A stretch of DNA of 64,000 nt from Methylicorpusculum sp. GTDB taxonomy: Bacteria; Pseudomonadota; Gammaproteobacteria; Methylococcales; Methylomonadaceae. Where the stretch lies: NCBI RefSeq assembly GCF_030651835.1, contig NZ_JAUSBX010000045.1, forward strand, positions 1 to 64,000. Reading direction: 5' to 3'. Below the pieces are notes generated by a model. The model ran no database searches. It worked only from the letters and a program-made list of their open reading frames with translations, and was not told where the DNA came from. Positions 4,946-49,651 of the stretch are shown one piece after another (the first letter of the stretch is position 1; every line of letters starts with the position of its first letter). Both the position numbers and the translations under genes were made by a program.

Positions 4946-4957
4946 TGGCAGCCTACC

Positions 4958-5119
4958 CAGCAATTCTCAGTTTGATCTTGTCGGCGTCATTTTGGGCTGG
5001 GAAAAGCCTTTTGAGGAACACCGTAAACCCTCCATGGGGGCTTGACAGCAGCATCCCTGCTGCCGACATCCTCAAAAAGCTTCCCCCTGCCCTTTTTTTG
5101 TTCAAATTGAGAATTGCTG
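4958..5119. repeat. MITE-like element (162 bp) with perfect 9-bp target-site duplication
   Basis: The terminal inverted repeats are CAGCAATTCTCAGTTTGATC on the left and the reverse complement of GTTCAAATTGAGAATTGCTG on the right. The flanking 9-mers are identical: CAGCCTACC at 4949-4957 and 5120-5128. Internally there is a perfect hairpin GCAGC-ATCCCT-GCTGC (5048-5063). Relative to the copies at 24348 and 41159 it is inverted. It contains no transposase, so it must have been moved in trans by an enzyme that makes 9-bp duplications. It occupies most of the 589-bp gap between the 47-aa gene and the HD-GYP gene; I see no further gene in that gap. Confidence 0.85.
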
Positions 5120-5450
5120 CAGCCTACCTAGAGCCGTCATCGCTTCAAATGTTAATGCCTACCCTTTTCATCATCAACTGGGGCATTGCGACGCTGCACA
5201 TTTCCTGCTTGACCCTACAAATGTAAATAAATGCCGCTAAAATTAGCGTACCAGAATTCATTCCGTCCTATCTCACAATGACCGTTTTTTTTACTAAAAA
5301 ATCCTTAATGTAGACTCTTCGGCCATTCGAGATAAGACTGACGACCCTTTAATGCCTTGACAAAAGCCTTGTTCAAGGGGGAAAGTGAATTATAAGCAGC
5401 ACTGATGACTTTGAGACTTAGGTACGTGAATTTTTCGTTTGAATCAAGCT

Positions 5451-6593
5451 ATGGAAAAAATAAAAATCATCGAAACTGATTTATTTATCGGCATTCCGCT
5501 GGAATGGGCCGTTTATGATGAAGAAGGGCAGTTACTGCTCGATAAAGGCTATATGCTCAATTCCGAAAAGCAAAAGCAAATACTTTTGACTCAGGGTATT
5601 TTTCGTCTCGATTTTACGGCTCAGACTATTGAAAAACCAAGACCTCCGACTGACGGTAAGTTTTTTAAAGGCACCACACATGATACGCTGAAATTATTAG
5701 GCAAAACACTCAGAGTGTTGTTCGACAAGATTCATGAAAACACGCCTGATGATTATTCAAATCACTTTCTGGATTTAGCAGCCGTCATCCAAAGACTCTG
5801 CCGCACTCAATGCGATGCGGTTCTGGGAACCATATTGCTTGATCAGAGTTTTAATTACTCACATATTCATCCGCTGCTTAGCGCCGTGTTGACGGAGCTA
5901 CTGGGAAAACGAAAACAACTGAATGAAGACAATAGAAGAATTTTTATCGCCGCTGCACTCACCCAAAATATTGGGATGTTGGAACTCCAAAAAAAACTGG
6001 CCAATCAAGCCTCTCCCCTCTCGGACCAGCAACGGGACATAATCAAAGCTCATCCGGAACTGGGCCGAGCTTTGCTACAAAAAGCCGGCATTAACAATGC
6101 GGAATGGTTGAATGCCGTACATAATCACCACGAACGTATTGACGGCAATGGTTATCCGGACGGTTTATCAGGTGATGCAATCCCTGTCGCAGCGCGAATT
6201 TTGTCGCTTACCGATATTTACAGCGCAATGATATTACCTCGGGCCTACCGTGACGGCTTTTATGTAAAAAAAGCTTTGCGCGACATTTTTTTACAGCGGG
6301 GAAGCGCCGTAGATGAATCACTTGCCCATCTTTTGATCAAAGAAATTGGCATTTATCCACCCGGTACTTTCGTTTTATTAGCCAATGGCGAAACCGGTGT
6401 CGTATTAAAAAGAGCGCCTGTTGATACAGAATCGATCCATGTGCTCAGCCTTCTTAATCCTCAGGGTAAGCCTTTCGCAAATCCAAAACAAAGAGTCAGT
6501 GACGAAACCGTAGCTTTTAAAATTATAAAAGCCACTCAACGCCTCAAAAACGTCGCCATCCAACCGGACCGTTTTTGGCCATTATCCCATTAA
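5451..6593 (+). CDS. HD-GYP domain protein with degenerate HD motif
   Basis: 380 residues from ATG 5451 (an in-frame TTG at 5439 is the alternative; neither has a clear ribosome-binding site). The C-terminal half carries the HD-GYP core: AHPELG, then HHERIDGNGYP at about 226-236, then SLTDIYSAM and RAYRDG. HD-GYP proteins normally hydrolyse cyclic di-GMP with a di- or tri-metal centre. Here the eponymous HD of HDxGK is replaced by Gln-Asn (TQNIG, about 171-175), removing two metal ligands, while the other histidines, the last Asp and the GYP motif are intact. It may therefore be a c-di-GMP sensor or a weak enzyme. The N-terminal region (IGIPLEWAVYDEEGQLLLDKG) resembles the start of other HD-GYP proteins. 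It appears monocistronic. Confidence 0.8.
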   Translation: MEKIKIIETDLFIGIPLEWAVYDEEGQLLLDKGYMLNSEKQKQILLTQGIFRLDFTAQTIEKPRPPTDGKFFKGTTHDTLKLLGKTLRVLFDKIHENTPDDYSNHFLDLAAVIQRLCRTQCDAVLGTILLDQSFNYSHIHPLLSAVLTELLGKRKQLNEDNRRIFIAAALTQNIGMLELQKKLANQASPLSDQQRDIIKAHPELGRALLQKAGINNAEWLNAVHNHHERIDGNGYPDGLSGDAIPVAARILSLTDIYSAMILPRAYRDGFYVKKALRDIFLQRGSAVDESLAHLLIKEIGIYPPGTFVLLANGETGVVLKRAPVDTESIHVLSLLNPQGKPFANPKQRVSDETVAFKIIKATQRLKNVAIQPDRFWPLSH

Positions 6594-6807: not shown

Positions 6808-7392
6808 ATGCCATCCCTGAACCCTCAAAAAAAGTTAACTCATTACACCTCTTTTCATCCTTTTATTGCCTGGCTGGTTTTTCTAATCTTGGCCGGTTTC
6901 GCGCTAAATGAACTTAACCAGATCAGAACAATATGGCGTTTGAACGATCTGATCGAAAATCCTGAAAAAATCAACTCTTCCGATACGGACCTGCCACCGG
7001 AAGTTCTGTTTGCCAAAGCACGTTATCTGAATGATCAAGGTGACTATCAGGAAGCTTTGCGCCTTTATTTACAAATTGAACATCAGGGAAATGAAAATTT
7101 CCGTTTGAAGGTTCAATACAATATGGGCGTGATCTATCTTCAACAGGCCAGTAAACTCTGGAAATCAAAAGGCGTTTGGGAATACAGCCAGATCAATACC
7201 CTTTTAGATTTAACCGAACAATACCTTAGACAGGTGCTTAACAAACAACCGGATCATTGGCAGGCACGATTTAATCTGGAATATGCTTTACGAATTCGCC
7301 CGCCGGCGAAGGAAGAGGAAAAATCTGACTGGCAAGGCCATAAAAGCAGCGTTCATGCAATCATGCCGGGAATTCCTGAGGGCGGGCCTTGA
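6808..7392 (+). CDS. mxaK: MxaK-like TPR membrane protein
   Basis: 194 residues: an N-terminal membrane anchor (PFIAWLVFLILAGFALNELN, about 18-38) and a periplasmic TPR-like region (AKARYLNDQGDYQEALRLYL; QYNMGVIYLQQASKLW; HWQARFNLEYALRIRPP). Size, topology and the directly following von Willebrand A gene match MxaK of the methanol dehydrogenase clusters, where MxaA/K/L (with C) help insert calcium into the MxaFI enzyme. The stop TGA lies inside the TTGA overlap with the mxaL-like start, so the two are translationally coupled. No mxaF, mxaI or mxaA is nearby, so this could be a split locus or a paralogous pair serving another quinoprotein. The symbol rests on resemblance and context. Confidence 0.65.
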   Translation: MPSLNPQKKLTHYTSFHPFIAWLVFLILAGFALNELNQIRTIWRLNDLIENPEKINSSDTDLPPEVLFAKARYLNDQGDYQEALRLYLQIEHQGNENFRLKVQYNMGVIYLQQASKLWKSKGVWEYSQINTLLDLTEQYLRQVLNKQPDHWQARFNLEYALRIRPPAKEEEKSDWQGHKSSVHAIMPGIPEGGP

Positions 7393-8264
7393 TTTACCGG
7401 GATTTCAGACTTTGGTGCCCGGCCGTTGCCATCGCGCTGTTGATGTGGGCGGCATTGAATCCACAGATCAAAGTGCAGAAAGATACTTACAACTTGATGA
7501 TCGTCATTGACATCACGCAAAGTATGAATGCGCAGGATTATCATGTCGATAACCAGCCTGCCGATCGTTTGTCTTTTGTTAAAGCGGCATTGAAAGAAGT
7601 CCTTGCCGAACTGCCCTGCGACTCTAAAATAGGCTTAGGACTATTTTCGACTAAAAATATATTTTTGCTGTTTGAGCCATTGGAACTTTGCGCTCATTAT
7701 GCAGCAATCGATGAAAGTCTCGCAAAAATTGACTGGCGCATGGCCTGGGCTGCAGACAGCCATATCGCCCGGGGAATCTACACCAGTTTAAGCGACATTC
7801 AAAAACTGGAGTCAAAACCCGGTCTGGTATTTTTTACCGATGGTCAGCAAACGCCAAAATCCGCCAAAGAACCGTTTTTTCAAATGGAAGCAGGGAAAAC
7901 TCCGGGCTTGATCGTTGGCACCGGTAATCTGGAGTCAGTCCCTGTGCCCAGACTGGATAATCAAAACCAACAGATTGGATTCTGGCAAATTTCAGAAGCA
8001 GAAGGCCGCCGACGCGCTAACACCGATATAACCGGAAATTATCTAACCGCGGTTCAGGAACCCTACTTACAGAGATTGGCGGTTATTACCGGATTGTCGT
8101 ATCACCATCTGGAAGACGCGGATAAACTGCTCAGTGCTTTAAAAGCATCCAGCCTCTTACAAAAACAGCCGGTCAATTATCCGTTTGCATGGATGCTGGC
8201 AGCCGTGTCTCTCCTCTTGTTACTTACTCCCTTCGCAGTAAACCGGTTGGCCCAAAAGCCATGA
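7389..8264 (+). CDS. mxaL: MxaL-like von Willebrand factor A domain protein
   Basis: 291 residues from TTG 7389, which overlaps the previous stop by 4 nt. N-terminal membrane helix (about 11-24), a VWA domain with MIDAS motif Asp41-Ile-Thr43-Gln-Ser45 (DITQS, a DxSxS variant with Thr) and the FFTDGQQTP loop, and a second helix near the C-terminus (about 266-285). This anchor-VWA-anchor layout is that of MxaC/MxaL-type proteins, which place a metal-binding VWA domain in the periplasm and take part in calcium insertion into methanol dehydrogenase. ATGA overlap with the next gene extends the operon to a transporter. Confidence 0.7.
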   Translation: MIYRDFRLWCPAVAIALLMWAALNPQIKVQKDTYNLMIVIDITQSMNAQDYHVDNQPADRLSFVKAALKEVLAELPCDSKIGLGLFSTKNIFLLFEPLELCAHYAAIDESLAKIDWRMAWAADSHIARGIYTSLSDIQKLESKPGLVFFTDGQQTPKSAKEPFFQMEAGKTPGLIVGTGNLESVPVPRLDNQNQQIGFWQISEAEGRRRANTDITGNYLTAVQEPYLQRLAVITGLSYHHLEDADKLLSALKASSLLQKQPVNYPFAWMLAAVSLLLLLTPFAVNRLAQKP

Positions 8265-9169
8265 TTTCCCGTTTGGTTAATCTCTTCCCGTTATGGGCGG
8301 CCATTCTGGCTTGTGCCGCTTATTTTTATCCCGGCCTGTTCATTTCCGGCAAGCAGATGATTGTTCCTTTGCTGTCGTTGATTATGTTTACTATGGGGCT
8401 GACCCTGACCTGGAGTCACTTTCAGGACACGCTGAAATATCCCGGCATTATTTTGTTGACCATGGCTATCCAGTTTACCGTGATGCCGCTGCTGGCTTGG
8501 CTGCTGTCCGGATCATTCAGCCTGACGAATGATCAGTCAGCCGGCATGATTCTGGTGGGATGCAGTGCAGGAGGGACTGCATCCAACGTGATCTGCTATC
8601 TGGCCAGAGGTAATGTGGCCCTGTCCATTCTGATGACTTTGTCATCTACAGTGGCTGCTGTTTTTATCACACCACTACTGACACTGGTTTTAATGGACCA
8701 GTCAATCAGCCCACCTTTCTCTGATATGATGAAAAGTCTGATAGAGTTGATCATTATTCCCGTCATGCTGGGCACTATGCTCAATACATTCTTTCAAAAC
8801 CGGATAAGCGCAATTCATCACTTTTTACCGCTGATGGCCAGTCTGGCCATCGTAGCCATCATTGCCGTAATCGTATCGCTCAATCAACAGCAGATCGAAG
8901 ACATGGGATCGACTCTATTGGCTGCAGTCGCACTTCATAATTTGGGCGGTATGCTGGCAGGGTATGCGATTCCATGGCTGCTTCGCTATGACAAACAGAC
9001 GTGCCGGACAGCCAGCATTGAGGTGGGCATGCAAAATTCAGGACTGAGTGTTGCATTGGCTATCACTTATTTTTCCAGCGCAGCTGCACTTCCCGGCGCC
9101 ATCTTCAGTATCTGGCACAACCTGTCAGGTTCGTTTGCCGCCATGATATGGCGAAAATATGACGTTTGA
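8261..9169 (+). CDS. bile acid:sodium symporter (BASS) family transporter
   Basis: 302 residues starting at ATG 8261, which overlaps the mxaL-like stop (ATGA). Upstream in-frame codons lie inside mxaL and are discounted. About nine to ten hydrophobic segments, with the BASS hallmarks SLIMFTMGLTLTW near residue 50 and GCSAGGTASNVICYLARGN near 110, plus GMQNSGLSVALA toward the end. BASS proteins import organic anions with Na+; the bacterial substrates are mostly unknown. Translational coupling to mxaK/L-like genes is curious and might point to a role in one-carbon metabolism, but that is only context. Confidence 0.8.
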   Translation: MISRLVNLFPLWAAILACAAYFYPGLFISGKQMIVPLLSLIMFTMGLTLTWSHFQDTLKYPGIILLTMAIQFTVMPLLAWLLSGSFSLTNDQSAGMILVGCSAGGTASNVICYLARGNVALSILMTLSSTVAAVFITPLLTLVLMDQSISPPFSDMMKSLIELIIIPVMLGTMLNTFFQNRISAIHHFLPLMASLAIVAIIAVIVSLNQQQIEDMGSTLLAAVALHNLGGMLAGYAIPWLLRYDKQTCRTASIEVGMQNSGLSVALAITYFSSAAALPGAIFSIWHNLSGSFAAMIWRKYDV

Positions 9170-41158: not shown

Positions 41159-41322
41159 CAGCAATTCTCAATTTGAAGAGAAAAAAGGGCTGGGGGAAGC
41201 TTTTTGAGGATGTCGGCAGCAGGGATGCAGCTGTCAAGCCCCCATGGAAGGGTTTACGACGTTCCTCAAAAGGCTTTCCCCAGCCCAAAATGAAGCCGAA
41301 AAGATCAAACTGAGAATTGCTG
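41159..41322. repeat. MITE-like element (164 bp)
   Basis: Ends CAGCAATTCTCAATTTGAAG and ATCAAACTGAGAATTGCTG are the family's terminal inverted repeats. The inner arms are also complementary over a long stretch (GGGCTGGGG...CCCCAGCCC; GCTTTTTGAGGA...TCCTCAAAAGGC), so the element can fold into one extended hairpin. The flanking 9-mers (ATTTAATGA, GGGTTTTGG) do not match. It lies 45 nt beyond the stop of the HlyD-type gene that ends the peptide cassette. Confidence 0.8.
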
Positions 41323-41367: not shown

Positions 41368-42714
41368 TCAAACCAGATTACTTCTGTCCAGCAACAGCCT
41401 TCGGATTTGATAAAACACCCGTTCCAGTAGCCGCATATCTTCCGTCACAATCTCGGCTCTGCCCTGCATTTCCTGTTCGAACGGCAACGTTTTATTGGCA
41501 CTGGTTTTAAGCGGATAAGCCAGCTTTGCCTGAACGCTGTAATGATCTTTATCGGGCAGCAATGAAATCATATCAACCTGACTTTCTATCAAACCGAATT
41601 CTTGAAACGGATAACCGGCCAGTTTAATCAGAATTTTCTGGCCTTGTTTGACTTTGCCTGAGTTGGCCAACGGCATGTTAATTTTTGCAATAATACCCTG
41701 CTCTTGTTCAGGAACCACAGTCACAACCTCTTCCCCGGCTTTTACAAATTGCTTGTCACTCCAGAATTTGAACTTGACCAGACGCCCCGTAATGGGCGCG
41801 GTGAGCAGATAGTTTTTTTCCCAGCTGTCGACCGAGGAAAGTAACTTTTGATAATTTTCCTCAAGACGTAACCTATAGTCTTTTTGCTGCTGCTGGTTTG
41901 CCAGATCAAGGCTGATCAACTCACCTGCCAAACGCGTGATTTCCAATTGTGTTCGGGCCTGCTCAATTGATAATTGCTCTTGTTGATGGGCATTACGCAA
42001 TACATCCAGGCGTTTATCATCGACGGCCTGCTCTGCAACAAAATGTTTTTCTATCAACTTTTGATACCGCGTCACATGGCCTTCCAATAATTTTTTTTGC
42101 TCCTTTAATACGGCTTGTTCAGATTCATGCTGTTTCAACATCTGTTGCAATTGCCCTTGTTTGACTCTGGCATTTTCCCGCTTCTGCACAAAGGGCTGTT
42201 GTTGCAGAAAAAACCTGAACTCATCCAGGCTCTTGTAAAAAGCTGCATAGGCCTCATTCAGCTCGCCCAAGGCCAAATTTTCGGGCGGCATGTCCAGCGC
42301 TGAGATATTTCCGTTGAACAGCTCTTTGCGGTTGTTAGTAAACCACTGCCTCAAGGCACCGACCGCGTCGATATCAGCCGGATTATCGATCCAGGCCAGC
42401 GTTTCGCCTTGACCGACCCGGTCACGCTCGCCTTTTCTCAGCCAGCGTATTTGCCCGTCACGCTGACTGACAATGCGTATCGGCGGCTGAGGCGTGGTGA
42501 TTGTAACGGAAGCGGAAATGACATCAGGATATTTAACTTGCCACGATGCTGCGAGTAGCGCAGCCAGACAACCCAAAACCACGAATCCACCCCAGCGGAG
42601 CAGCCAACCCGGCGGTTTGCCCAATAGCTCCTGGGTATAGAGACTGTAATCCTGAACGACTGTTATGGGGGTAGCCGTGCTGAAGGAATTAGGTAAAATA
42701 TTAGTCTCGCTCAT
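41368..42714 (-). CDS. HlyD-family periplasmic adaptor of a peptide exporter
   Basis: 448 residues. A cytoplasmic N-terminus and one membrane helix (WGGFVVLGCLAALLAASW, about 41-58) are followed by a first biotinyl-lipoyl half (IRWLRKGERDRVGQGETLAWI), a long Gln/Glu-rich coiled-coil hairpin (about 165-300), the second lipoyl half (LLTAPITGRLVKFKFW) and a beta-barrel domain. It bridges an inner-membrane ABC exporter to an outer-membrane channel; no TolC gene is nearby. 15 nt downstream of the C39-ABC gene in the peptide cassette. Confidence 0.88.
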   Translation of the reverse strand: MSETNILPNSFSTATPITVVQDYSLYTQELLGKPPGWLLRWGGFVVLGCLAALLAASWQVKYPDVISASVTITTPQPPIRIVSQRDGQIRWLRKGERDRVGQGETLAWIDNPADIDAVGALRQWFTNNRKELFNGNISALDMPPENLALGELNEAYAAFYKSLDEFRFFLQQQPFVQKRENARVKQGQLQQMLKQHESEQAVLKEQKKLLEGHVTRYQKLIEKHFVAEQAVDDKRLDVLRNAHQQEQLSIEQARTQLEITRLAGELISLDLANQQQQKDYRLRLEENYQKLLSSVDSWEKNYLLTAPITGRLVKFKFWSDKQFVKAGEEVVTVVPEQEQGIIAKINMPLANSGKVKQGQKILIKLAGYPFQEFGLIESQVDMISLLPDKDHYSVQAKLAYPLKTSANKTLPFEQEMQGRAEIVTEDMRLLERVFYQIRRLLLDRSNLV

Positions 42715-42729
42715 AGCATTTCTCGTTGA

Positions 42730-44931
42730 TTAATTACCCAGCTCAAGCTGATTTTTGACCAGATTGAAATAAACCCCACGCGCTGCAGTCAGTTGCTGAT
42801 GATTGCCGCTCTCAACCACACACCCTTTATCGAGCACCAGAATTTGATCCGCGTTTTTCACAGTGCTTAAGCGGTGAGCAATGACAATGACGGTTCGGCC
42901 CTGGTAAAACTGCTCCATTTTTTCGAGGATAATGCGTTCATTTTTAGCATCCAAGGCACTGGTGGCCTCATCGAAAAATAAAAAGGCTGGATCTTTATAA
43001 ACCGCTCTGGCAATCAATATCCGCTGATTTTGACCACCGCTCAGACTCAAGCCATCGGGACCGATTTTAGTATTCAAGCCATTCGGTAATCCGCTGATCA
43101 ATTCATCCAGATTTGCAATATCGATCGCACGTTGCAGCCGGTTTTGGTCGATCAATCCGTCTGATTCGGATTCGGTAATGTTGCGCAACACCGTGTCATT
43201 AAAAATAAAGCCGTTTTGCATCACCACGCCGCAGCTTTGCCGCCATGCCGTTGTCGATAAAGACTGAAGATCAATTCCGCCAACTCTTACGGCACCTTGA
43301 TTCGGCTCGTAGAATTTCAGTAAGATTTTTAATAATGTCGTTTTACCGCTGCCGCTGGCCCCAACAATTGCGGTGACTTTGCCTTTGGGAAACACCGCAT
43401 TGATATTGTTAAGCACTAACGGCGAAGCTTCTCTTCCATAACGAAAACACAGGTTATCCTGCAACATAATGGTATTGTCCGCACCGGATAGCTGAATAAA
43501 ATGCTGTGACTTGTTTTCATCGGCTTTATCGTGGACTTCGGCGAGACGGTTAAGGCTGATTTTTGCATCCTGAAACGACTGAACAAAACTGACGAAATTT
43601 GAAATCGGAACATTTAACTGACCAATGATGTATTGAGTTGACAGCATCATCCCCACGGTCATATGCCCTTCTATGACCGCTTTGGCACATAAGAAAGTGA
43701 TCAGAATATTTTTCAGCTCATTGATAAAATTCGCGCCGGTCATTTGGTACTGATAAAGCGCCAGACTGTCCACTGACACTTTAAACAAACGCACCTGAAT
43801 TTTTTCCCACTCCCAGCGACGGCGTCTTTCCGAATTATTGAGCTTGATTTCCTGCATGCCGCTAATAATCTGAACCATACTGCTCTGGGTTTGTGCGGCT
43901 TGTTCAAAGCGCTTGTAATCGAGCACCGCGCGCCGGCTCATGAACATCAGCACCCACCCGGCATAAAGTGCAGTGCCGATAGCAAACACGGCCAGAATCT
44001 GCAGGCTGTACCAGGCTAAAACACAGCTGAATAACACTAGGTTCAATGCCGAAAACAAGGTCGTCAGCGTGGCCGAAGATAAAAATTCCTCAACCCGATG
44101 ATGATCCTGCACCCGCTGCAGAAAATCGCCGATCATCTTGCTGTCGAAGAAAGCCACGGGCAGTTTCATCAGCTTCAACAAAAAATCGGAAATGATCGCA
44201 ATGTTGATGCGTGAACCGATATGCAACAATATCCAGCTACGGATCAATTCCACCGAAGTCTGCGACAAAAACAGCATCAGCTGGGCGGCCAGCAACACAT
44301 AAACAAAATTCAGATTATTGTGGTTGACGCCGTAATCGACCAGCGCTTGAGTCATGAACGGAAAGGCCAGCAGAATCAAACTACCCGCGAATAAACCAAT
44401 AAATAACTGACCTATTAACCGGTAATACGGCCGGAAATATGGCCATAAAAATCCGATACCGCACCCGCGTGCGTCAGGACATTCGTCGTCCCTATAAAAT
44501 TCCGGTGTCGTATCCAGCAACAATAAAATGCCTTCTTCATCGGAATCGGCATTGACAACATCGAGCCAGCCCGACAGAAACTCCTGAACACTGTATTTCA
44601 TAAGACCAAACGCAGGGTCAGCGACATAGACATGACCTCCTTTAATGGCATAAACAACAATAAAATGCTGCTGACGCCAATGCGCGATACAGGGCAAGAT
44701 GACATCGTCCTGCAAGGTCCTTAAATTTGCCTTAATCGCAACCGTCTTGAACGCATAAAGCTCGGCCGCCTCGGCAATACCGCCCAGCGTGACGCCTCCG
44801 CGGGTGATGGCGCATTTTTCGCGCACGTCATCCAAAGGCAAAATACGACCATAAAATCGCGCAATCATGTGCAGACAGGTCGGCCCGCAATCCATGGCAT
44901 CCATTTGTCTTTGAAAAGGAAATTTTTGCAT
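42730..44931 (-). CDS. C39 peptidase-containing ABC exporter (bacteriocin/RiPP type)
   Basis: 733 residues from ATG 44931, which has AAGGATC 7 nt upstream; the longer frame is rejected. The N-terminal C39 peptidase has Gln9, catalytic Cys15 (MDCGPTCLHM) and HFIVVYAIKGGHVYVADPA with the His and Asp. Membrane domain of about six helices follows, then the ATPase: Walker A GASGSGKTTL, signature LSGGQNQRI, Walker B FLFFDEATSALD. C39 domains cut leaders after a double glycine and the transporter exports the released peptide. The adjacent precursor candidate has such a Gly-Gly. Confidence 0.95.
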   Translation of the reverse strand: MQKFPFQRQMDAMDCGPTCLHMIARFYGRILPLDDVREKCAITRGGVTLGGIAEAAELYAFKTVAIKANLRTLQDDVILPCIAHWRQQHFIVVYAIKGGHVYVADPAFGLMKYSVQEFLSGWLDVVNADSDEEGILLLLDTTPEFYRDDECPDARGCGIGFLWPYFRPYYRLIGQLFIGLFAGSLILLAFPFMTQALVDYGVNHNNLNFVYVLLAAQLMLFLSQTSVELIRSWILLHIGSRINIAIISDFLLKLMKLPVAFFDSKMIGDFLQRVQDHHRVEEFLSSATLTTLFSALNLVLFSCVLAWYSLQILAVFAIGTALYAGWVLMFMSRRAVLDYKRFEQAAQTQSSMVQIISGMQEIKLNNSERRRRWEWEKIQVRLFKVSVDSLALYQYQMTGANFINELKNILITFLCAKAVIEGHMTVGMMLSTQYIIGQLNVPISNFVSFVQSFQDAKISLNRLAEVHDKADENKSQHFIQLSGADNTIMLQDNLCFRYGREASPLVLNNINAVFPKGKVTAIVGASGSGKTTLLKILLKFYEPNQGAVRVGGIDLQSLSTTAWRQSCGVVMQNGFIFNDTVLRNITESESDGLIDQNRLQRAIDIANLDELISGLPNGLNTKIGPDGLSLSGGQNQRILIARAVYKDPAFLFFDEATSALDAKNERIILEKMEQFYQGRTVIVIAHRLSTVKNADQILVLDKGCVVESGNHQQLTAARGVYFNLVKNQLELGN

Positions 44932-45016
44932 AGTCAGATCCTTGTTATTCGAAACAGGAATTGCTGCCAAGAGCCGGTTGATTCATCTGGAAAAAAAAAT
45001 CAGCGCTGACGTGATC

Positions 45017-46102
45017 TCATATTGAATAATTGAGTGATCCAGAGCTTTGTTGAGGCCGCAGCGTATTCCAATTCCTTTTTAACGGTTGATGCGAAGCCGC
45101 CGTGATCATTTCATTCCAATTAAATACAAAGGGCTGAGATTTATCGGTAACAGTTTTATGAAGCTCATGACACAATCCATAAAATGGGACCATATGGTTT
45201 TTACGCCAGTCATCGGCCAGTTGTCTGAAACTATTTTGATGAAGATTACCAATTGCATAATCCCTGGAAAAGCCGTATTGGACCGGCACGATCATGCCAT
45301 CCGGTTCTATCGCTAACGAAGCAATACAATCGGCAAGCGAGGTATCAAATTCAGGGAGCTCACCGGCGGCATAAACTGACTCGGGATGCTGGAGAACAGC
45401 GACCCGTGTGGCAAAATCCATCTGAACTCTTAACTTGCCTTCCAAATTCTGCTGCAGCGTTTCCGATAATAAATAGGCATAGGCCGATTCTGTGCGATCC
45501 GGCGAATCCCCCATCAAATGAGCCGAAGCAAATCCGGCATTTTCCAGAGGATGGATTTGCAGCAATTGAGCGCCCTCCTGCAAAGCAAAATTGACTACCC
45601 AGTCCAATTCATTCAGGTTGTATTGCGTCAGCGTAAAAATAAAACCGAAAGGAATTTCAGCGGCTTGCACTATTTTTAAATTGGCGGCCATTTTTTTAAA
45701 TGCCTGCGTCGAATTGCGCATGCGATTATGAGATTCGGGCACACCGTCCAGACTGACGGCGACCAGATCGGTGACATTCTTGAGTTGAGCCACACGTTTT
45801 TTATCCAAAAACATGCCGTTGGTAGCAATAGCTGTGGCAAAACCTTTGAACTTGGCTTGTTCCAGCAATAACTCCAGAGAGGGATAAAGCAAGGGTTCTC
45901 CACCGGAAATACTGACATAGTTGTAGCCTTCCTCGGCGGCATCCGCCAAGGCCCGGATAAGCAGCGCGACATCAATTGCGCCGCGCTGCTTTGGCGATGA
46001 AGAAGAATAGCAATGCAGGCAACTCAGGTTACACAACCGGGTTGGATGTATTTGTATAGCTCGCGTTGTTCCGTTGGAACCTACTTTGTATTCTTTCTTC
46101 AT
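45017..46102 (-). CDS. radical SAM peptide-maturation enzyme
   Basis: 361 residues. The [4Fe-4S]/SAM motif is Cys24-x3-Cys28-x2-Cys31 (CNLSCLHC), followed by SISGGEPLLYP (SAM-binding GGEP) and VSLDG. The C-terminal third has the shape of a SPASM/twitch domain (ASLAIEPDGMIVPV, YAIGNL) but contains only Cys259 and Cys311, too few for two auxiliary clusters, so it holds at most one atypical cluster. A strong AGGAGA site precedes the ATG, 9 nt after the precursor gene. I infer it installs a carbon-centred crosslink or similar change on the 77-aa peptide; which one cannot be read from sequence. Confidence 0.9.
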   Translation of the reverse strand: MKKEYKVGSNGTTRAIQIHPTRLCNLSCLHCYSSSSPKQRGAIDVALLIRALADAAEEGYNYVSISGGEPLLYPSLELLLEQAKFKGFATAIATNGMFLDKKRVAQLKNVTDLVAVSLDGVPESHNRMRNSTQAFKKMAANLKIVQAAEIPFGFIFTLTQYNLNELDWVVNFALQEGAQLLQIHPLENAGFASAHLMGDSPDRTESAYAYLLSETLQQNLEGKLRVQMDFATRVAVLQHPESVYAAGELPEFDTSLADCIASLAIEPDGMIVPVQYGFSRDYAIGNLHQNSFRQLADDWRKNHMVPFYGLCHELHKTVTDKSQPFVFNWNEMITAASHQPLKRNWNTLRPQQSSGSLNYSI

Positions 46103-46111
46103 AAACTTCTC

Positions 46112-46345
46112 CTACCTTCTTAGCTGAGTAGAACTCAATTGGCTTTGATTTAACTGAGGATTGACCAGGTTTTGATTGATGGTTTTAAAAAAGGCCGGCT
46201 GCCCATAAATCCACCAACCGCTCACAGAAATTCCGCCCCTGGCTTCTAACGCTTCTTCTACGTTGGTGAATTCTGCCAGACTCCGTTTGCCGTTTTTTGT
46301 GCAGGTGAAATCTAATTTTTCAGAGCCTCTGATTTTATTGCTCAT
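46112..46345 (-). CDS. RiPP precursor peptide candidate
   Basis: 77 residues, first gene of the cassette, with a strong ribosome-binding site (TAGGAG, about 8 nt upstream). The leader-like half is charged and holds the only cysteine (Cys15); it ends in EEALEARGG (Gly37-Gly38), a plausible C39 cut site, although -4 and -7 are Ala instead of large hydrophobics. The predicted core starts ISVSGWWIYGQPAFFK, an aromatic cluster with motifs (WIY, YGQ, FFK) of the kind crosslinked by cyclophane-forming radical SAM enzymes. It ends with a Gln/Asn/Leu-rich tail in which NL/QL recurs every four to five residues, closing with Arg-Arg. No named family recognised. Confidence 0.75.
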   Translation of the reverse strand: MSNKIRGSEKLDFTCTKNGKRSLAEFTNVEEALEARGGISVSGWWIYGQPAFFKTINQNLVNPQLNQSQLSSTQLRR

Positions 46346-49369: not shown

Positions 49370-49651
49370 TTACTCTTGTTCAGAAACCGCAATGATATCT
49401 TTACGGTATTTATAGACCAGATACCCTAATGCAAAACCAAGGCCGATCAGCGTCACGGGATGTGTCAGGACTTTTTTCAGCGTACTTTTTCCTGCAGCAG
49501 CAGAACCGGCGGCAATGGTCTTACTGACACCGTGCGCCATAGGCTGTTTGGCCGCCATACCCATTTTGCCCATGTCCGCCATGGATGAAGACATCATTTT
49601 GGCAGCCTCAGCAGTCCCCTGGGTGATTTTTGCACCATGTACGTGAGCCAT
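49370..49651 (-). CDS. Met/His-rich small membrane protein, paralogue A
   Basis: 93 residues with AAGGAGAA before the ATG. The N-terminal half carries HVH (residues 3-5) and a Met-rich run: Met19, 20, 24, 27, 30, 32 and 38, suited to Cu(I) binding. A single helix near the end (LTHPVTLIGLGFALGYLVYK) is followed by YRKDIIA. The helix and YRK(D/E)IIA motif recur in the protein encoded at 49855-50154, so they are paralogues. Position 104 nt upstream of copA, same strand, supports a copper role, which is inference. Confidence 0.7.
   Translation of the reverse strand: MAHVHGAKITQGTAEAAKMMSSSMADMGKMGMAAKQPMAHGVSKTIAAGSAAAGKSTLKKVLTHPVTLIGLGFALGYLVYKYRKDIIAVSEQE

Follow-up and report, generated by a model that had tools for sequence, protein, structure and literature searches.

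A four-gene cassette from a methanotroph that probably makes and exports a new family of radical-SAM-modified peptides

Most of the radical SAM enzymes studied that act on ribosomally made, modified peptides (RiPPs) carry extra iron-sulfur clusters, the role of which is disputed. The triceptide enzymes carry a SPASM/twitch domain that binds one or more such auxiliary clusters, and among reactions of other kinds, spliceotide formation takes place at an X-Tyr-Gly splice site. A simpler arrangement is found in the proteusin epimerases of the PoyD family, which have the radical SAM cluster only and one conserved Cys that has been proposed as hydrogen donor (PMC8326336). Here we analyse a cassette from Methylicorpusculum sp., located in a stretch of 64,000 nucleotides (the window). 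We are fairly confident that it is a complete set of genes for the biosynthesis and export of ribosomal peptides modified by a radical SAM enzyme, and that these peptides form a new family, in which a short patch of the core would be modified by a single-cluster enzyme, and the product cut after Gly38 and exported. The gene set, its selection and linkage, the division of the precursor into leader and core, the patch, and the loss of the auxiliary-cluster cysteines are features of the sequences themselves.

A preliminary description of this DNA had placed four genes here on one strand, beginning with a 77-aa precursor with Gly37-Gly38, and the coordinates and Pfam matches agree with it throughout (Table 1). 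It also called the genes tightly spaced, which holds for the gaps between precursor and enzyme (9 nt) and between exporter and adaptor (15 nt), the enzyme-exporter gap being looser at 85 nt; it also mentioned strong ribosome-binding sites, and AGGAG-type sites lie 5' of the precursor and enzyme genes. The CNLSCLHC motif it had recognized corresponds to Cys24/28/31 of a radical SAM protein (Pfam Radical_SAM, E 4e-23). Its account of a C39 exporter with intact catalytic and ATPase motifs likewise holds when the gene is read from the ATG at 44931: Cys15, His89 and Asp105 are present, as are GASGSGKTT, LSGGQ and the DEATSALD Walker B (Peptidase_C39, E 6e-31). We place the start at this ATG and not at the TTG at 44970 because the orthologues begin there (MQKFPF, MSKFPF, MAKFVF, MKKFPF), and on this comparison the longer, TTG-started frame is a mechanical artefact. 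The adaptor matches Pfam HlyD_3 (E 1e-10) and has an orthologue, 44% identical, in genome L041. Promoter and terminator scans of the cassette gave no more than did shuffled sequence. Close behind the HlyD gene lies a 164-bp palindromic element (window 41159-41322) with 18-nt terminal inverted repeats; at least 40 copies, 87-98% identical, are present in the genome, one of them at window 4956-5119, and the element is MITE-like and has no Rfam match.

Table 1. Features of the cassette, in window coordinates
Feature	Position	Strand	Basis
Precursor peptide gene, 77 aa; leader 1-38 (ends Gly37-Gly38), core 39-77	46112..46345	-	ORF; co-conserved with the enzyme in 7/7 family genomes
Radical SAM enzyme, 361 aa; CxxxCxxC intact, SPASM-like domain	45017..46102	-	Pfam, alignments, AlphaFold model
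C39 peptidase-ABC exporter (PCAT), 733 aa	42730..44931	-	Pfam C39, ABC membrane and ATPase; orthologue starts; solved relatives
HlyD-family periplasmic adaptor, 448 aa	41368..42714	-	Pfam HlyD_3; NCBIfam type_I_hlyD (below cut-off)
Leader, residues 1-38 of the precursor	46232..46345	-	Alignment, identities, exporter comparison
Conserved core patch WWIYGQP, residues 44-50	46196..46216	-	Common to six distinct cores

Is the cassette real? Orthologous cassettes occur in seven genomes besides the source genome, the nearest relative being a Methylomicrobium MAG (L001) whose enzyme is 91% identical. Of the 237 family genomes, seven have strong enzyme orthologues (E < 1e-100), and when the family was searched independently with a precursor profile, the precursor turned up in exactly these seven and nowhere else; in each it adjoins the enzyme. 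The proposal that a frame of this kind should be conserved beside homologous radical SAM genes is thus upheld in seven family genomes and in one from another order, and for the enzyme clade within the family no other substrate was found. Between three close copies, dN/dS is about 0.06-0.09 for the precursor, whose frame is therefore a translated gene under purifying selection; the exporter is similar (about 0.05-0.06), and the enzyme lies above the precursor at 0.12-0.25. Because orthologous cassettes exist elsewhere, and because synonymous changes far exceed nonsynonymous rates in every gene, the cassette is not a chance arrangement. The sequence features expected of a RiPP cassette with C39 export are present, namely a conserved leader, a variable core, a GG site, and a C39 domain with its catalytic residues fused to an ABC exporter, and by sequence the four genes very probably form a real one.

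The cassette is rare. The enzyme family is present in 9 of 311 genomes of the order, and two of the nine are incomplete or orphan and were left out of the cassette counts: L042, whose enzyme is 41% identical, has no precursor within 600 bp upstream and its downstream side ends with the contig, and in L043 the copy lies at the end of a contig, is truncated and seems to have decayed. A 369-genome sample of the class added one further genome with the enzyme family, and the five other genomes from the order of L044, discussed below, held no further cassette. A tblastn search of plasmids gave no match to the precursor, and with the enzyme gave only distant radical SAM proteins, including NirJ and pseudo-SAM families; a search of viral contigs gave one weak match. 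The product had been suggested to be a bacteriocin or a metal ligand, either of which is conjecture; no immunity or metal gene was seen travelling with the cassette. Upstream of the cassette, L037 (6540-6827) and the window (49370-49651) have the same small gene (MAHV.GAKI..GTA.AAK), and the downstream neighbours differ, being an alcohol dehydrogenase in L037 and ribosomal protein L31 in the window. Since the neighbours differ on one side despite the common gene on the other, the region that holds the cassette has undergone rearrangement within this genus.

Across the precursors, the leader is conserved and the core divergent, with the exception of one patch. GG is present in 8/8 precursors, and the leaders of family members are 55-97% identical to that of the window. 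The N-terminal part of the leader, K-x-[RK]-G-S-[ED]-[KR]...Cys15, is retained by every one of the eight precursors, with S in place of R in L039, and Cys15 (window 46301-46303) is invariant; this Cys is presumably removed along with the leader. The second half of the leader is helical and ends in GG. The core (39 aa) lacks Cys, and the more distant family cores share with it 8-16 of 30-36 aligned positions. From the eight precursors six distinct cores are available, and each contains exactly one aromatic-x-x-G-x-P element, counted in the window from Trp45: WWIYGQPAF, GFPQGIPAI, WWKYGTPAI, WWIRGIPAV, WWRFGMPGL and VFPRGIPWP. An aromatic cluster and a QL/NL-periodic tail had been noted in the window core; the conserved part of this is the aromatic-x-x-G-x-P patch, and the tail is absent from the other cores. 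The motif, which was picked after the cores had been seen, arises in 1-5% of residue shuffles per core, or about 5e-10 jointly. With a general three-residue pattern, the number observed was reached by 0.31 of shuffle sets, a test that does not discriminate because hydrophobic triples are common; of the two, the aromatic-x-x-G-x-P test is the one that informs. Conservation of this kind makes the patch (WWIYGQP in the window) a likely modification site.

One orthologue amounts to a natural exchange of parts. In L044, a genome of a different order within the class, the enzyme is 48% identical to that of the window, and the precursor begins MSEKIRGSDKLKMQC and has VFPRGIPWP as its core element. 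Its exporter and adaptor are only 28% and 26% (partial) identical to those of the window, and the two genes are in swapped order. The second half of its leader has been replaced along with the exporter and reads LTCEEIEQVAGG, with hydrophobic residues at -4, -7 and -12, which is the leader pattern for C39 exporters (PMC10885120). In this natural experiment the exporter and the end of the leader have thus been exchanged, and the enzyme, the leader start and the patch have stayed together. The exchange is our strongest evidence that the enzyme would read the start of the leader and act on the patch, and it points to leader residues ~1-15 as the probable recognition site. It also bears on whether the peptide is modified at all. 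Since the precursor resembles peptides of the class II microcin type, and the exporter would suffice for its secretion, the product might be a double-glycine bacteriocin or signal peptide that stays unmodified, with the radical SAM enzyme acting on something else. We consider this very unlikely, given the strict one-to-one linkage of precursor and enzyme and the conservation of leader N-terminus and patch even beside an unrelated exporter.

To which class might such a peptide belong? Sactipeptides and ranthipeptides are excluded by the lack of Cys in any of the six distinct cores, so that the preliminary argument from the window core is borne out more widely. By score, the triceptides, darobactins and dynobactins are remote: the best precursor match is XyeA, at 12.4 bits against a cut-off of 33 and in L044 only, and the enzyme reaches 64 of 450 bits for DynA. 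The auxiliary-cluster domain of triceptide and darobactin enzymes is matched no better, the cluster cysteines being gone except Cys311. NirJ, of haem d1 biosynthesis, gives 102.6 of 515 bits, and three of four ligands are lost. A spliceotide-like reaction at X-Tyr-Gly (I-Y-G here), which would remove a tyramine unit and leave an alpha-keto-beta-amino acid, has in its favour that the patch includes Y-G in the window and L039, and that C39-type exporters serve spliceotides (PMC10885120). We regard it as very improbable, since the site occurs in 2/6 cores and R-G, F-G or Q-G stands there in the others. The precursors have no Pfam or NCBIfam family match above cut-off, in keeping with the earlier statement that the core could be placed in no named class, and a literature search of partial coverage, with most subscription papers outside it, found no description of such a cassette. 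Because the cores lack the Cys of sactipeptides and ranthipeptides, the triceptide and darobactin scores are low, and a consistent spliceotide site is absent, the best reading is that the cassette stands outside the named classes, as a new RiPP family with an unusual enzyme.

The enzyme clears no curated cut-off; NirJ is the closest named family (E 2e-29). Its C-terminal domain aligns with NirJ-like proteins, which have C-x2-C-x5-C-x~20-C there, and the cassette enzymes keep only the first of these, Cys311; the SPASM 'PC' position is Val, Leu, Ile or Met. By alignment, then, the enzyme derives from a NirJ-like SPASM lineage in which three of four cluster cysteines have been lost. This loss, which went unnoticed at first, speaks against reading the enzyme as a simple one of the triceptide or darobactin type. 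An AlphaFold model built with 44 sequences (pLDDT 91.6; a model with seven close sequences, pLDDT 67, was set aside) shows a radical SAM barrel and a degenerate SPASM-like domain, and its best solved structural matches are the RiPP maturases SkfB (Z 26.8) and SuiB (Z 24.6). The protein has only 23 residues N-terminal to its first cluster Cys, and its SPASM-like part is followed by no spare domain; with no room on either side, the enzyme lacks an RRE, and the cassette holds no PqqD-like gene.

The cluster motif is missing as well from distant relatives of alphaproteobacterial type (L078-L081, L045). In several of them the enzyme gene directly follows a small ORF of 61-108 codons, which suggests that the wider enzyme clade modifies peptides or small proteins. 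In L096 (5556-5882), L097 (5823-6140) and L099 (minus strand; reverse-complement 5165-5482), ORFs of 105-108 codons run up to or into the start of genes for distant relatives of the enzyme; the ORFs have in common a D-x-C-x-Y-G-x-C-x-D-[YF] motif, match no Pfam or NCBIfam family, and are possible substrates or partners of another enzyme branch. On the minus strand of L095 a 61-aa ORF (reverse-complement 7089-7274) lies upstream of an enzyme (7356-8378) that is 44% identical to that of the window and has Thr for Cys311; no exporter was noticed nearby. This pair may show a related reaction without Cys311.

From these sequences we infer how leader recognition, cleavage and export would proceed. 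The enzyme would recognise the start of the leader, as far as Cys15, without an RRE, and alter the core at the aromatic-x-x-G-x-P patch. The C39 domain of the exporter would then cleave after Gly37-Gly38, and a peptide of ~39 residues would leave through the ABC exporter, the HlyD adaptor and a chromosomal TolC-type channel. Modification followed by cleavage and export is the established order in cassettes of this type.

What reaction would such an enzyme carry out? By analogy with the PoyD family, we tentatively propose that the reaction is redox-neutral, for example an epimerisation at C-alpha in which Cys311 donates the hydrogen. Cys311 is kept in all cassette members, and its role as donor is weakened by its loss in more distant enzymes (Val in L078, and Thr in L079, which is 44% identical) and by its homology to an old cluster ligand; judged by that descent, it may be no more than a relic. 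A rival for the chemistry, which leaves the reading of the cassette unchanged, is a crosslink of the triceptide or darobactin kind, a cyclophane or ether in which one of the aromatic rings in the WWxxGxP patch is linked to a side chain nearby, with a loss of 2 Da for each C-C link. The patch is rich in aromatics and has a variable side chain two residues on, every core is free of Cys, and the weak NCBIfam matches of the enzyme include the DynA and WgkB maturases. Those matches are far under the curated cut-offs, however (59 of 650 bits for WgkB), no precursor scores above cut-off for XyeA or a similar family, and the positions following the patch aromatic are not fixed (I-Y, K-Y, I-R, R-F, P-Q, P-R). 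Moreover, DarE has a cluster-binding SPASM/twitch domain (PMC9055067), and the cassette enzyme is without those cysteines. We hold a crosslink to be slightly less likely than epimerisation. That the chemistry is something other than epimerisation or an aromatic crosslink is as possible as our proposal of epimerisation. A specific version, which we think unlikely, is that a NirJ-lineage enzyme that has shed its auxiliary cluster performs an undescribed modification on W-W-x-x-G-x-P, the leader being read without an RRE and Cys15 perhaps taking part in catalysis or binding.

With the fold of the cluster-bearing maturases but not their extra clusters, a 77-aa substrate, a fixed target patch, and variants from several genera, the cassette would be a convenient system for asking which chemistry such an enzyme can do without them. 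An antibacterial product, if that is what the cassette makes, would represent a new class from methanotrophs.

How does the cassette compare with known systems? The likeness to the proteusin epimerases PoyD and OspD, which consists in a radical SAM cluster only and a conserved Cys (PMC8326336), is known from published descriptions; those enzymes carry an RRE at the C terminus and go with very long, nitrile-hydratase-like leaders, whereas the cassette enzyme leaves no room for an RRE and its precursor has a leader of 38 residues. The epipeptide epimerase EpeE (YydG) has a similar fold (Z 20.8), a short leader and a Cys hydrogen donor, but it binds two clusters (PMC8326336), is 14% identical in structural alignment, and acts on an unrelated precursor. 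The sactisynthase SkfB and the lysine-tryptophan cyclase SuiB are RiPP maturases with a barrel and a SPASM/twitch domain, but both have an RRE and auxiliary clusters, and sactipeptides need a core Cys that the cassette lacks. NirJ and AhbC, of the haem d1 and haem pathways, align in the C-terminal domain, but the context here is that of a peptide and the cysteines are lost. Triceptides and daropeptides resemble the cassette in a Cys-free core with an aromatic patch and a radical SAM gene beside the precursor; they differ in that no family match is found and in the double-glycine leader, C39 exporter and absence of auxiliary-cluster cysteines seen here. The exporter aligns over residues 3-726 with the full-length solved transporters PCAT1 and ComA (E 4e-99 and 6e-88) and has the C39 triad intact, and unlike them it works with a Gram-negative HlyD adaptor.
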